A stretch of 64,000 bases of DNA, from positions 496,001-560,000 of the forward strand of contig PAAG01000047.1 in the NCBI GenBank assembly GCA_002698785.1, in the 5' to 3' direction. The notes below the pieces were generated by a model. That model was not told where the DNA came from, ran no database searches, and saw nothing but the letters and a program-made list of their open reading frames with translations. The DNA is from Verrucomicrobiales bacterium. Its GTDB lineage: Bacteria; Verrucomicrobiota; Verrucomicrobiia; Verrucomicrobiales; DEV007. Made by a program: the position numbers and the translations under genes. This document shows positions 6,095 through 61,100 of the stretch, piece after piece (within the stretch, counting starts at the first letter, position 1; each line of letters opens with the position of its first letter).

Positions 6095-7174
6095 ATGGAT
6101 TGGCAACTAATCATCGCATCTGTAATTAAGATCGTCGGATTCGTTTTCCTGACGACACTGCCTCTCGTGGCTCTATCTGTCTGGGCCGAGCGCCGAGTCA
6201 GTGCCGCGATCCAGGATCGGGTTGGACCGAACCGCGTTGGCCCTCTCGGTCTCCTTCAGCCCGTGGCAGACGGTATCAAATTCTTGCTCAAAGAGGACTT
6301 CACTCCGTCTCACGTGCGGAAAGGTTACTTCTGGCTGGCGCCGGCCCTGACGATGGTTCCGGCGCTCATGACATGCGCCGTTCTTCCTTTCGGCAGCAAG
6401 ATCTTTGGGGAAAAGATGGTCATCGCTGACCTCGACGTTGGTCCCCTCTTCGTTTTCGCCATCGCCTCTTTGACAGTCTATGGAATTGTCCTGGCAGGAT
6501 GGGCTTCAAACTCGAAGTATCCTTTCCTCGGCGGTGTCCGCTCGACAAGCCAGATGATCTCGTACGAGATCTCGCTTGGACTCTCAGTCGTCCCGTTGAT
6601 CATGATCTACGGGGACCTGAATCTTGGTCGCATCGTGCAGAATCAGGCGGAACACGGATGGGCGCTCCTTCCTCTCTGGGGTGAAGGGCTGAGCCTGAAA
6701 GGATTCATCCTCGCGATACCGGTATTTATCTCCTTCATCATTTTCACCACGTCGATGTTTGCAGAGACCAACCGTCTCCCCTTCGACCTTCCGGAGTGTG
6801 AAACAGAGCTTGTCGCCGGTTACCACACCGAATACAGCTCGATGAAATTCGCCCTTTTCTTCTTGGGCGAATACGCGGCCATGATTATCGGATCAGGCCT
6901 CGCGGTTACCCTTTTCTTTGGTGGTTGGAGTCTACCGTTCGGATGGCTCACTCCTGAAAGCGTTGATGCAGAAGTGCCTTGGTGGCATGGACTGATTCAC
7001 ATCGGAACCTTCTTTGCTAAAGTCATCGCTTTCATTCTATTCTTTATCGTCGTGCGCTGGACACTTCCACGCTTCCGTTATGACCAGTTGATGCGCCTGG
7101 GCTGGGTCTTCTTTTTCGAGATCGCCCTCTTCAACGTGGTCCTGACCGCAATCCTCCTCATCATTTTCAAGTAA
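6095..7174 (+). CDS. nuoH: NADH-quinone oxidoreductase subunit H
   Basis: 359 residues, about eight membrane helices. This subunit links the peripheral arm to the membrane arm and lines the quinone tunnel. Diagnostic segments are ERRVSAAIQDRVGPNRVGP near 30-48, LLQPVADGIKFLLKED near 51-66 and AETNRLPFDLPECETELVAG with the following YHTEYSS near 225-250, which carry the conserved acidic residues of the quinone/proton path. The ATG follows the nuoG stop by 9 nt without a Shine-Dalgarno motif. Length and motifs are typical. Confidence 0.97.
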   Translation: MDWQLIIASVIKIVGFVFLTTLPLVALSVWAERRVSAAIQDRVGPNRVGPLGLLQPVADGIKFLLKEDFTPSHVRKGYFWLAPALTMVPALMTCAVLPFGSKIFGEKMVIADLDVGPLFVFAIASLTVYGIVLAGWASNSKYPFLGGVRSTSQMISYEISLGLSVVPLIMIYGDLNLGRIVQNQAEHGWALLPLWGEGLSLKGFILAIPVFISFIIFTTSMFAETNRLPFDLPECETELVAGYHTEYSSMKFALFFLGEYAAMIIGSGLAVTLFFGGWSLPFGWLTPESVDAEVPWWHGLIHIGTFFAKVIAFILFFIVVRWTLPRFRYDQLMRLGWVFFFEIALFNVVLTAILLIIFK

Positions 7175-7195
7175 ACCCTCAACTCCTACCGAACC

Positions 7196-7726
7196 ATGGC
7201 AATCGTCTGTGAACGCCCAAAATTGAAATGGTGGGAACACTTGTACCTTCCCGCCCTCGCGAAAGGCATGCGAGTGACCCTCGGACACTTTTTCAAAATC
7301 GTATCCGGAAAGAAAAAGGTCACCATGCAGTATCCCGAAGAGAAATGGGATGATCATATGCCTGAGCACTATCGCGGTGCCCCAGCTCTCGTCACAGACG
7401 AGCAGGATCGCGAACGCTGCGTGGCCTGCCAGCTTTGTGAATTTATCTGCCCTCCTCGCGCCATCACCATCCATCCGGAAGAGATCCCAAGCGATGACAA
7501 GTGGGCAAAAGTAGAAAAGCGTCCTCAGAGCTTTGACATCGACATGATCCGCTGCATTTACTGCGGACTCTGCGAAGAAGTCTGCCCAGAGCAAGCGATC
7601 TTCCTGCGAAAAGATTACGCTATCACCGGCACTTCCCGCGCCGAGATGGTTCACGACAAGTCAAAACTCTACGAAATCGGCGGCAAACGCGTCGGTCTCG
7701 TCAATAAGTGGAACGAACTCAAATAA
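7196..7726 (+). CDS. nuoI: NADH-quinone oxidoreductase subunit I
   Basis: 176 residues, the 23-kDa ferredoxin-like subunit holding clusters N6a and N6b that deliver electrons towards the quinone. Two 8Fe ferredoxin motifs are present: CVACQLCEFICPPRAI near 77-92 and CIYCGLCEEVCPEQAI near 118-133, each Cys-x2-Cys-x2-Cys-x3-CysPro. The N-terminal amphipathic region (YLPALAKGMRVTLGHF) resembles the membrane-contacting helix of the family. The stop at 7724-7726 abuts the left inverted repeat of the IVS-type cassette, which separates this gene from nuoJ. Confidence 0.97.
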   Translation: MAIVCERPKLKWWEHLYLPALAKGMRVTLGHFFKIVSGKKKVTMQYPEEKWDDHMPEHYRGAPALVTDEQDRERCVACQLCEFICPPRAITIHPEEIPSDDKWAKVEKRPQSFDIDMIRCIYCGLCEEVCPEQAIFLRKDYAITGTSRAEMVHDKSKLYEIGGKRVGLVNKWNELK

Positions 7727-7755
7727 GAAGCAGGGAGCAGGAAGCAAGAAGCCGG
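7727..7755 (+). repeat. Left inverted repeat of the IVS-type cassette
   Basis: 29 nt starting immediately after the nuoI stop codon and ending one base before the ATG of the cassette gene. It is composed of purine-rich GAAGCAGG/GAGCAGG/AAGCAAG units. It pairs with 8126-8154; of the three differences, one becomes a G-U pair in RNA. Confidence 0.85.
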
Positions 7756-7756
7756 A

Positions 7757-8119
7757 ATGGCAGAGCCCGCACGCAGTTTTCAAGATTTACAAGTATGGCA
7801 AAAGGCGCACGAATTAGTTCTGGAACTCTATCGGACCACACGCGGGTTTCCGAAAGAAGAGATCTACGTACTGACTGCGCAATTACGGAGGGCAGCTATC
7901 TCTATCCCGTCGAACATTGCCGAGGGCTTTCATCGGCGCGGTACTTCGGACAAACTACGATTTCTAAACTTTGCCGAGGCGTCTTTGGAAGAAGTTCGCT
8001 ACCAACTGATCTTATCCAAAGACTTGGGATACTTGGACTCCGAAGAGATTTTTCAAATGCTCGACTCGACAGGACGCCTTCTTGGTGCCTACATCCGAAC
8101 CATCAGGAGCAACCGCTAA
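7757..8119 (+). CDS. Four-helix-bundle protein, 23S rRNA intervening-sequence family
   Basis: 120 residues. The pattern FQDLQVWQKAHELVLELYR near the N-terminus, then LRRAAISIPSNIAEGF near 45-60 and SLEEVRYQLILSKDLGYL near 76-93, is that of the small four-helix-bundle family (related to the S23/IVS proteins and to the diversity-generating-retroelement accessory protein Avd). Members are small, basic, probably nucleic-acid-binding proteins whose cellular role is unclear. Here the gene is an insertion in the complex I operon, co-directional with it, and would be transcribed with it. It has no counterpart in complex I. The ATG sits directly after the left repeat, so translation of this gene would have to occur from within the stem region. 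Confidence 0.9.
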   Translation: MAEPARSFQDLQVWQKAHELVLELYRTTRGFPKEEIYVLTAQLRRAAISIPSNIAEGFHRRGTSDKLRFLNFAEASLEEVRYQLILSKDLGYLDSEEIFQMLDSTGRLLGAYIRTIRSNR

Positions 8120-8125
8120 ATCATT

Positions 8126-8154
8126 CCTGCTTCTTGCTCCCTGCTTCCTGCTTC
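8126..8154 (-). repeat. Right inverted repeat of the IVS-type cassette
   Basis: The reverse complement of this 29-nt stretch matches 7727-7755 at 26 positions. It ends 11 nt before the nuoJ ATG, so it occupies the place where a nuoJ ribosome-binding site would lie and, when paired, could affect nuoJ translation. Confidence 0.85.
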
Positions 8155-8165
8155 ACTCTTACGAA

Positions 8166-8675
8166 ATGACATTTCTCTTTTTCATCTTTGCAGCTCTCGC
8201 CCTCATTGGAGGGATTGGAGTTGTGGCCTTTAAAAACCCGGTTTCATCGGCGTTTTCGATGGTTGTTTCCTTCTTAGGTCTCGCTGCTCTATTTATTCAG
8301 CTCAACGCCTTCCTCGTCGGTGTTCTGCAGATTCTTGTCTACGCGGGTGCCATCATGGTTCTATTCCTCTTCATCATCATGCTTCTCGATGTTCCGCAGG
8401 AAGAAAAGAAAAAGCTGCCCTTCTTCACCGCTCTTGGGGCGGGCGGAATCGTCCTGGCTTTCATTGCCCTCCTGGTAGTGATGCTCTCTCGCTCCGAAGT
8501 CGGAGACAAAACGTTGCCTGCCCTCGAGGCCACTTCAGGCCCTGGAACATCAGATGTTCACAAGATTGGCGAACTACTCTTCAGCCAATATTGGTTCCCG
8601 ATTCAAGTGGTCGGAATTCTTCTGCTGGTAGCCACCGTTGGAGTGGTTGTTCTAAGTAAACGCGAACTGAAGTGA
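8166..8675 (+). CDS. nuoJ: NADH-quinone oxidoreductase subunit J
   Basis: 169 residues with about five membrane helices. The family's pi-bulge helix region is visible in [20 protein letters not shown] near residues 51-70. The subunit couples quinone-site rearrangement to the antiporter-like modules. The ATG at 8166 was chosen. An in-frame extension back to 8082 would translate the right repeat and the end of the cassette gene and is not family-like. nuoK follows after 10 nt. The insertion upstream leaves this subunit 439 nt from nuoI, whereas other neighbours in the operon are within 37 nt. Confidence 0.95.
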
Positions 8676-8685
8676 TCGAATACGA

Positions 8686-9012
8686 ATGGAAACCGCTCTT
8701 ACCCTGAATCACTTCCTTTTTGTCAGTGGCGTCCTCTTCGCCATCGGACTTGCTGGTGTGCTCGTTCGCCGGAACTTGATTGTCATCTTCATGTGTCTGG
8801 AGTTGATGCTCAGCGCGGCGAACCTCACGCTTGTTGCCTTTTCACGATTCAACGTCCAGGAAGGTCAGCCTGACTACCACGGACATGTTCTTCTCTTTTT
8901 CATCATCACGGTTGCGGCGGCAGAAGTAGCCGTCGGTCTGGCCATCATCGTTGCGTTGTTCCGAACCAAGGGCACCACCGATGTCTCGAAGATCGATACG
9001 ATGAAGTTCTGA
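8686..9012 (+). CDS. nuoK: NADH-quinone oxidoreductase subunit K
   Basis: 108 residues, three membrane helices, homologous to MrpC. Conserved buried glutamates of the proton path are visible in [12 protein letters not shown] (helix 2) and in [17 protein letters not shown] (helix 3). Length and motifs are normal for the family. It lies between nuoJ (10 nt) and nuoL (24 nt) and has no Shine-Dalgarno motif. Confidence 0.97.
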
Positions 9013-58161: not shown

Positions 58162-61100
58162 ATGTCTTTCGGAATAAGAGAAAAGGTCGCCCTGTTGGTC
58201 ATGTTGGCGACAGCCGCTTCCTGCTATCTGGTAGCAAAAGTCCTCACTCATCGCGCGACAGCCAATCTTCGTGAACACGAATTAGTCGACCTGGGAGATG
58301 AGGCATCTCTCCGCGGCTGGGTCATGATCGACCGTATCGAAGGCCTCAAGGACGACCTCATTAAAATCGCCTACAATTCGAACTTCGCGAATGACGTCAC
58401 AAGCGACAAGACCGAGGAAGAACTTTTCAAAATCGCCCGTGGACTGTGCCGCCGATACTGGAAGAATCACCTGAGACTCGATGTCGTCACGATTCGAGAT
58501 GGCATTCCGAAAACGAAGGTCATTTCATCCAAAGCCATCGTTGACGAGAAGGACATGTGGCTGCCACCACTGGAACAACTGGCGAGGCCAGGCCTGAACG
58601 TTTCTTCAATCCAACGGATGCGGGTAGTCCATACGAACATCCCGGGTCACGATGAATTCCCGAGGTGGGAACCCGTCATCTGGGCGACAGCGAACCTTGA
58701 TCGTGAGGGCAGCCAGTCGACCGATACTTCCCGGTATGTTCGCATCATGATGACGCTCTACGATGAGCCGTCACCAAGGCATCTTTTTACACTGGAAAAC
58801 AGCGATGGAGCCCAACTTGTCCGGCACGACGAATCAGATTCGCTGGAACGAGGTAACGATCAGGTGTTTCTCAAGCTGAGTAAAACAGAGGAGTTGCAGA
58901 GTGCTCTGGAAGAGCGCCGGGAGGAGAGGAAGAATCCAACAGAAAACGAAGAAGAGCCAAAAGTGGAAAGGCTGGTGCGAAATGAGAACGTCCCGCTCAA
59001 TAGCCCCTACTTTTTCCGCGAAGGAACGCCTGGGCAAGCTTTGACAGACGTGCTCGATGAAATGGAGGATCCTGAAGTTCTCGAAATCCTCGAAAGGATC
59101 CAAGTCGAGGCAGCCCCATACGGTCGAGTGGGAGGGATGCAGGGCGGAGTACGCGAGGTGCGGATCTTAGCACATTCTCGAGAAGAGCTGGAAACCATTC
59201 AGCAACTGGTGACCGATGCCCTTGAGAAGGAATTCTCTATCGAACACACTCATATCAATTGGCGCGCTGTCGTGGAATGCGATGAGATCCACTCCTGGGC
59301 CGTAAAAATCGTATCAGGCAGCGTCGATCACTGGGAGGAGTATTTGATCCACTACGCCGTGCTCGACGACGAACTTGCTTCCTCGATTGAATACGAAATG
59401 AAGGCCGTACAGAATGTAGCACTCGCTGTCGCGGCTATGTTCGGGATCTTCGGGTTTCTGATCGCTATGCACTTTATCCGACCGCTGAGGCAGATGACTC
59501 TCACAGCGCAAAAAATTACGGATAGCCACGGTAAGGGCCTTTATAAAAAGGTAGGAGCACTGGCCCGAAATCTCGAGATCAAACGGAGAGATGAAGTGGG
59601 AGATATCGCTCGGGCTTCCAAGAGACTGTTCGAAGAGCTAATCTCATCGCAGGAAGAGTTGGAAGATCGAGTGCATGAGCGAACCCATGAGCTTCGCAGA
59701 GCCAATTCCAGCCTGGAAGAAGCGAATGAGAAACTCATGAGCCTGAGTCATGAGAAAGATGCTTTTGTCGCAAAGATCAGCCACGATCTACGGCAGCCAC
59801 TCAACGCGATTTTCCTGCAGGTAGAGGCTTTGAAACTTTCTGAGCTCGATGACGCACAGAAGAAGGATGTGCAGCGCATTCATGACCACGCTGCGCGAGA
59901 ATTGAATCTGGTGAATGATATCCTGGAATATCAGAAGATCATCATGGGTGCGGAGACGCTCAATAAGGATACCATCGATATTCAATCACTCGTGGACGAT
60001 CTCGTCGAAGCGCACACCGCCAGCCTCGACCAGAAGCCTGTGGAATTAAAAGAAACGTGCGACAAGGACATCGGTAGTCTCGTGGCAGACGACCGGCGCC
60101 TTCGTCAGGTATTAGGCAACCTGGTGGGTAATGCCTGTAAATTCACCAAGGAGGGATCCGTCACCATAGAAGCGCGTGCCCGGGAGATTGGTGAGGTTCC
60201 GTGGGTCGAATTCACAGTGGCAGATACGGGTCGCGGAATGAGCCCGGAAGAACAGTCCAAAGCATTTACCCCCTTTGTTTCAAACAAGAAAGACAACGCC
60301 GGGGGCAGCGGGTTGGGGCTCTCCATTTGCAAGGAGCTCGTGTCACAAATGGGCGGTCGGATTGGTTTCATAAGTGAACTTGGCGAGGGCACACAATTCA
60401 GTGTCTTTCTTCCTCGCATACCGGACTCAGAGCACTACGAGAAACGAGAAATTCCCGAGAGTGAAGCCGAGTTCCTGATCAAGCCCTCCATGAACGGAGA
60501 CCGCCTGTTGCCGGGCTCTGACGGAGGCACGATTCTAGTGATCGACGACGACGAGCGGGTAAGAAACATGCTTTCACGCATTCTTGGGGCAGAAGGCTAC
60601 GACGTCATCACCGCTCCCGACGGACCATCAGGCATTGCACTCGCAAAAAGAGAACAGCCAGATGCCATCACTCTGGACGTCGTGATGCCTGGCGGAAAAG
60701 ACGGGTGGGATGTTTTGCATACCCTGAAGGAATCCCCCGAGACCGAGCGGATCCCGGTGATCATGGTTTCCGTAATGGCAGAAAGTGAAAATGGATTCGC
60801 CCTCGGAGTTGAAGACTACCTGGTGAAGCCGATCGACATTGACCGATTGAGTCGAGTCATTGCACGGGTGACAAGCCATGCCCCCCAGCGAAACATTCTC
60901 CTTGTCGACGATGATGTGGACTCCCTTCAGGCACTCCAGCGATTGATGGAACAGGCCGGTCTGCAGACAGTAATTGCCGAGAATGGAGCAAGAGCTCTCG
61001 ATGTGCTTCAGAAAACTCGCCCTGCAGCGATTGTGCTCGACCTGATGATGCCGGAGATGGATGGCTTTGAGTTTCTCCAGCGGCTGCAAACCGACAGCAG

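Follow-up and report, generated by a model that had tools for sequence, protein, structure and literature searches.

A 428-nt cassette (positions 7727–8154) fills the junction between nuoI and nuoJ in a 64,000-nt (64-kb) stretch of Verrucomicrobiales DNA, the whole of which we refer to as the window. We put at about 60% the probability that this cassette is an operon-borne element of the intervening-sequence (IVS) kind, probably selfish, in which one IVP gene stands between two inverted arms made of heptamers. Because the same architecture recurs in other genomes with variable letters, the rRNA IVS of Coxiella also contains heptamers and the arms of one Rhodanobacter element are built of GGGATTC, we class the window cassette with the IVS elements, as one carried in an operon, and what marks the ends of such elements seems to be the length of the unit and the mirror symmetry of the arms rather than the letters.

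The nuoI–nuoJ cassette and its protein

All parts of the cassette and both host genes lie on the forward strand. The left inverted arm (7727..7759) starts 0 nt after the stop codon of nuoI (7196..7726), its end is the start codon of the IVP gene (7757..8119), and nuoJ (8166..8675) starts at 8166, 11 nt beyond the end of the right inverted arm (8122..8154), a spacing that the original prediction had given correctly. Tandem Repeats Finder resolves each arm into a 7-nt unit (GAAGCAG / TTCCTGC) repeated 4.4 times; the left arm reads as the degenerate heptamers GAAGCAG, GGAGCAG, GAAGCAA and GAAGCCG, and the right arm carries heptamers in mirror order, with the unit TTCCTGC. A period scan of the 64-kb window found no period-7 array besides these arms, and Tandem Repeats Finder added just a very short array at 60437, of 2.1 copies. 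In the inverted-repeat alignment, 30 of the 33 arm positions pair (91%). The 29-nt repeats with 26 matches of the original prediction are real and, on a count by eye, form only the outer part of these 33-nt arms; their make-up of heptamers, which proved to be the most general feature of the arms, had gone unnoticed. As in an IVS, the complementary ends are predicted to form a stem around the IVP gene, the RNA of 7700–8180 folding at −158.2 kcal/mol (z −5.07; none of 100 shuffles as low), and the stem consists of heptamers, as printed for Coxiella. The classical location in an rRNA gene is replaced here by a place between nuoI and nuoJ. Positions 7000–9000 gave no Rfam match up to an E value of 1, and thus no known RNA family at this site.

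The IVP gene encodes a four-helix-bundle protein of 120 amino acids that matches PF05635 (23S_rRNA_IVP; 5.9e-37, 126.6 bits, cut-off 33.8) and TIGR02436 (1.7e-34, 118.3 bits, cut-off 24). Together with the paired arms and the gene coordinates, the PF05635 match bears out the claim that an IVS-type cassette lies between nuoI and nuoJ. The only solved chain that the protein matches at an E value of 0.001 is 2gsc_A (XCC0516), whose entry holds five chains and which the available part of one report describes as a homopentamer of four-helix bundles (PMC4990558).

The window's genome has seven PF05635 copies, so that related genes also lie elsewhere in it, which favours the original prediction. Exact seeds detect clear enclosing inverted repeats at four of the seven, and six score above 24 in the arm alignment described below, five of these six with a best period of 7. 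The units differ among the copies (GAAGCAG in the window, and AGGCAGA, GTAATCA and GATATTG), so the terminal repeats common to all copies by which a MITE or insertion sequence is recognized are not seen in this genome. Locus L016 has, at approximately 1490–1620 (G000 C39 near 68324), a heptamer array of the GGAGCAG type next to a different one of the TTGGATN type, and the family search found no IVP gene there.

Inverted heptamer arms at PF05635 genes

To score enclosing arms, the left flank of each PF05635 gene was aligned with the reverse complement of its right flank. Mismatched pairs of loci served as the null, and the threshold of 24, its 95% point, was derived from the controls of two locus sets (the order and GTDB) and then applied to the other sets. 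The GTDB sample comprises the best 80 of at least 584 confirmed loci, found with one conserved peptide pattern, and is biased by both of these choices; it spans 27 named phyla or candidate phyla plus eight loci without a phylum label. Arms above the threshold enclose the gene in 63 of these best 80 loci, with a best period of 7 in 48, of 8 in 13 and another in 2, and 17 of the 80 lack significant arms; control positions elsewhere in the same loci exceeded the threshold in 7 of 152 cases, none with period 7. Within the order, sampled as part of the PF05635 places found (36 + 40 loci; places are present in 42 of 56 genomes), 64 of 73 places counted once each have arms, 10 of the 64 without a clear period and 4 with a period besides 7 or 8. 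Arms were also found at all nine further nuo-junction places and at 17 of 21 loci on contigs classed as viral (L284–L309; 26 loci before identical flanks were removed), 15 of them with period 7. With places counted once (L053, L058 and L059 being the same places as L048, L047 and L090), the pooled set contains 183 places, of which 153 are armed, including the 63 from the best 80 of at least 584 GTDB loci. The median arm in these 153 is 32 nt long, that is, four to five units, and G exceeds C in the left arm of 139. As judged from aligned flanks, the cassette architecture recurs at PF05635 genes of many phyla.

The unit length is more stable than the letters. In Flavobacterium, at one site of the Flavobacteriales whose neighbours are homologous, some genomes have the unit AGGTTCAA and another species has AGTAGCTG, and comparison of the arms indicates that unit sequence varies between elements while unit length stays at 7 or 8. 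When strict period labels (113 rows, 95 of period 7 and 18 of period 8, viral rows left out) are placed on the IVP tree, ten changes suffice, whereas 500 shuffles needed 16.9 on average and never fewer than 13. In an 11-row clade of Nitrospirota, Thermodesulfobacteriota, KSB1 and Bacteroidota, all seven labelled rows have period 8; two more lean to 8 and two are without significant arms. There are counter-examples, periods 7 and 8 being mixed inside small clades of the order, and the clustering could reflect plain inheritance of the whole element, to which near relatives add. The arms of L076, which forms a clade with L186 and L201, have a best period of 11. Unit-by-unit mirroring of the two arms left a modest sign: in 44 elements, up to 3 of them counted twice, a mean of 0.28 of the unit-order permutations reach the real arm score, and in 9 of these 44 none does.

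The original prediction proposed that the sense nuo transcript folds and that RNase III cuts the stem, splitting or tuning the nuo mRNA, which would make the cassette an mRNA equivalent of the rRNA IVS. The strength of the predicted stem (z −5.07) agrees with this proposal, as do the gene, size and heptamers shared with the Coxiella rRNA IVS, which, in the accessible text, is excised by RNase III in vitro (PMC4990558). The IVP gene also runs in sense in 54 of 56 loci with co-directional neighbours among the best 80 of at least 584 GTDB loci (p 4e-14 against even odds), with neighbours called by open-frame length only. Ordinary genes between co-directional genes are also mostly in sense.

The mismatches between the arms point the other way. 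A stem kept as sense RNA would predict that transition mismatches are mostly of the kind that leaves a G·U pair in the sense transcript; across 153 elements, in a comparison that carries no positive control, 107 are sense G·U and 172 are of the opposite kind (p 0.0001). Counted per element, the skew is 37 against 57 (p 0.049), again with fewer sense G·U, and in the gap-free subset it is 72 against 93 (p 0.12). On this distribution, the arms look as if they were kept as DNA or by frequent renewal rather than for RNA pairing. We rejected selection on the sense RNA stem on the lack of a sense G·U excess, and likewise an antisense-RNA reading, as the opposite skew is not significant without gaps and lies in the half of the arm adjoining the start codon (inner half, 45 sense G·U against 96; outer half, 62 against 76), where it may stem from an A-rich translation start. 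The likeness of the cassette, set in a protein-coding operon, to an rRNA IVS in gene, stem and size is supported; upkeep of the stem as RNA structure is not supported, and we regard cutting of the nuo mRNA as an unlikely account of the cassette.

History at operon junctions and competing explanations

Both nuoI and nuoJ were present in 96 of the 103 loci examined in the order. Ten of these 96 junctions carry an IVP cassette, the window's own included (G000, G022, G024, G040, G042, G032, G168, G073, G110 and G155; the junction cassette of G029 is cut by a contig end and stands outside this count), and all ten start 0–9 nt past the nuoI stop codon and end 4–16 nt before nuoJ. The cassette is confined to some of the related junctions, and the pattern that had been named as contrary to the prediction, a cassette in all relatives with no repeats elsewhere, is not the one we found. 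A further 59 junctions are shorter than 60 nt (in two, the genes share 4 nt), and 26 span 60–250 nt without an IVP gene. Seven of these 26 have inverted arms above control, and their sequences mark such ORF-less pairs as putative mini-forms or remnants of IVP elements. The nuoI–nuoJ spacer of L030 (G016), 483 nt long and without IVP similarity, seems by eye to hold another open frame.

The window's family has seven junction IVPs, counting the cut one of G029, and these group in one clade (99/83), so the recurrence at nuoI|nuoJ may partly be old vertical inheritance. The junction IVPs of family f2 fall in a separate, starred clade, which also has a long branch. The nuoI–nuoJ tree is rejected by the IVP data (AU p 0.00013) and the IVP tree by the nuo data (p 0.006); the nuo tree skipped L098, L102 and L105 because of gaps, and the large nuo tree is weakly supported in parts. 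Between G040 and G032, nuoI has a dS of 0.54, yet the IVPs are 55% identical with saturated synonymous sites. This divergence and the conflict between the trees fit repeated arrival or replacement of cassettes at nuoI–nuoJ. A single old insertion was rejected on the same conflict and on the starred branches, which force at least two changes of the junction label, one row behind these changes sitting with a long branch.

The junction is no unique hot spot, since arrays of period 7 or 8 occur at nuoH|nuoI (6/42) and nuoJ|nuoK (3/36) as well as at nuoI|nuoJ (8/40); none was found at nuoG|nuoH (n = 33) or nuoK|nuoL (n = 32). The gaps at the other nuo junctions reach 220 nt at most, which leaves too little room for a cassette. 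Two IVP clades also occupy the pheS|pheT junction in related genomes (L011, L197 and L198 versus L061, L063, L166, L167 and L169; sites set by flank similarity of 78–84% where aligned, with Pfam gene names for L011 only), and IVPs of two clades lie at a PSCyt3/DUF1552 gene pair (L008, L052 and L237 versus L078 and L189, the last assigned by one flank only). With elements numbering in the hundreds and gaps in the low thousands, chance alone should produce some double occupancies, on an estimate made without computation.

The closest junction IVP pairs have dN/dS values of 0.055 (G040/G042) and 0.061 (G168/G073), and those with the partial gene of G029 values of 0.105 (G042/G029) and 0.119 (G040/G029); dS in the four pairs is 0.86–1.61, two of them at 1.5–1.6 and so near saturation. 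These ratios indicate purifying selection on the junction IVP genes, which argues that the protein is used. Such selection, and the clade of junction IVPs in the window's family, would also suit a domesticated nuo regulator, a host gene flanked by an attenuator of its own and retained to control nuoJ. The cassette is missing from 86 of the 96 junctions, the IVPs at the same junction in family f2 are distant, and other operons hold the same architecture, all of which makes domestication improbable.

We give similarly little weight to a retro-mobile element, in which an IVP related to Avd would be the trans-acting helper of a reverse transcriptase, and primer slippage on the template would give rise to the 7-nt unit. 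The window's IVP is indeed related by HMM to the Avd proteins of diversity-generating retroelements: it matches phrog_3206, an Avd protein of such an element (4.1e-13), and scores against the Avd model NF033474 (44.8 bits, cut-off 80) and the bAvd model PF22296 (25.4 bits, cut-off 40). Unlike an Avd protein, it stays below both curated cut-offs, and the window's genome, 96% complete and with seven IVP copies, has no RVT_1 match at an E value of 0.001. Half of the IVP carriers (21/42) lack RVT_1, and a raw correlation between IVP and RVT_1 copy numbers (rho 0.31, p 0.02) is lost after correction for genome size (p 0.28). A reverse transcriptase as the helper was rejected on these grounds.

It is very unlikely that a Y1 (REP-associated) transposase mobilizes the cassette as a miniature element with the IVP as passenger: copy numbers of IVP and Y1 correlate after genome-size correction (rho 0.38, p 0.004), 40 of 42 IVP carriers have Y1 and ORF-less inverted pairs exist (in 7 of 26 ORF-less spacers of 60–250 nt), but the arm sequences differ from copy to copy and so offer no shared site for the transposase to read, no Y1 match was found in G002 or G019, which do have IVPs, and both counts may just track the load of mobile DNA. 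An anti-phage role was set aside, as no PADLOC model matched.

Proposed mechanism and comparison with known systems

If the window cassette is an operon-borne, probably selfish IVS-type element, we infer its mobility from the patchy distribution and the conflict between the trees. Such an element would spread at the DNA level, as one unit, and settle in gaps between cistrons, breaking no gene there and being transcribed from the host promoter; no near-identical copies were found at different sites among the loci compared, which counts against such spread. The IVP, a solved relative of which is a ring of five chains, would act on the arms by reading unit length and mirror symmetry instead of a fixed sequence. 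Renewal of the arms in place, by copying of units both inside each arm and between the two, would explain how the letters change while length and complementarity are kept. Pairing of the arms in the transcript could place the IVP gene in a loop and leave the nuoI stop codon beside the start of nuoJ, an arrangement that would let the host tolerate the insertion.

More tentatively, and on balance with some doubt, these elements may form one large class of intercistronic elements whose ends are known by unit length and mirror symmetry; the IVP would set or read the 7- or 8-nt unit, the arms would be rewritten in place, the rRNA IVS would be a side branch, and many unexplained bacterial heptamers would be arms or footprints of the class. 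Such a class would join two puzzles, the role of the IVP family outside rRNA and the origin of over-represented bacterial heptamers, and it would be unusual for a protein to recognize its own element by ends that are set by length and not by letters. If this is true, the IVP of a lineage with period 8 should favour octamer over heptamer arms whatever their letters.

The closest known counterpart is the IVS in the 23S rRNA of Coxiella burnetii, which, in the part of the report available, has an S23p/IVP gene, a length of 428 nt, a 28-bp terminal stem and tandem GACAGAT heptamers upstream of the gene in a strain-variable copy number (PMC4990558). The window cassette shares the IVP gene, the length of 428 nt, the terminal stem and the presence of heptamers; in contrast to the Coxiella IVS, it lies in an mRNA operon, both of its arms are heptameric and its unit is different. 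The Coxiella gene is described there as undergoing reductive evolution (PMC4990558), whereas the junction IVPs seem to be under purifying selection. Insertions in the 16S and 23S rRNA genes of CPR bacteria also carry genes of the IVP family, according to the accessible text of another study (PMC11270868); in contrast to this rRNA location, none of the 80 fetched GTDB stretches (the best 80 of at least 584) matched rRNA.

Several bacterial heptamer repeats resemble the arms. The GGGNATC heptamers of Xanthomonas and Nostoc are intergenic, prefer four units, are read as G-quadruplex formers and occur as 70–75 convergent (mirror) pairs per Xanthomonas genome; in the portion of that paper available they are not linked to IVP genes (PMC4692102). 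The GGGATTC arms of the Rhodanobacter element (L267) are like these repeats, whereas the G-quadruplex reading suits few of the elements studied here, with four GGG runs in just 9 of 153 left arms. The TAACTGA heptamers of Beggiatoaceae, mostly intergenic sets, some of them split by related 7-mers, share the intergenic position of the IVP arms and differ from them in being nearly all direct (169 direct sets and one inverted); the accessible text contains no terms for IVS or four-helix genes (PMC4679880). Among the literature matches listed, which lie mainly outside subscription papers and bioRxiv, no general link between IVP genes and heptamers appears, the Coxiella paper alone having both. Already known, then, as far as these sources go, are heptamers in one IVS, that of Coxiella (PMC4990558), and bacterial heptamer repeats without a link to IVP; new here is that each arm of the cassettes is built of about four degenerate heptamers, one array being the inverse of the other, and that such arms are general around PF05635 genes.
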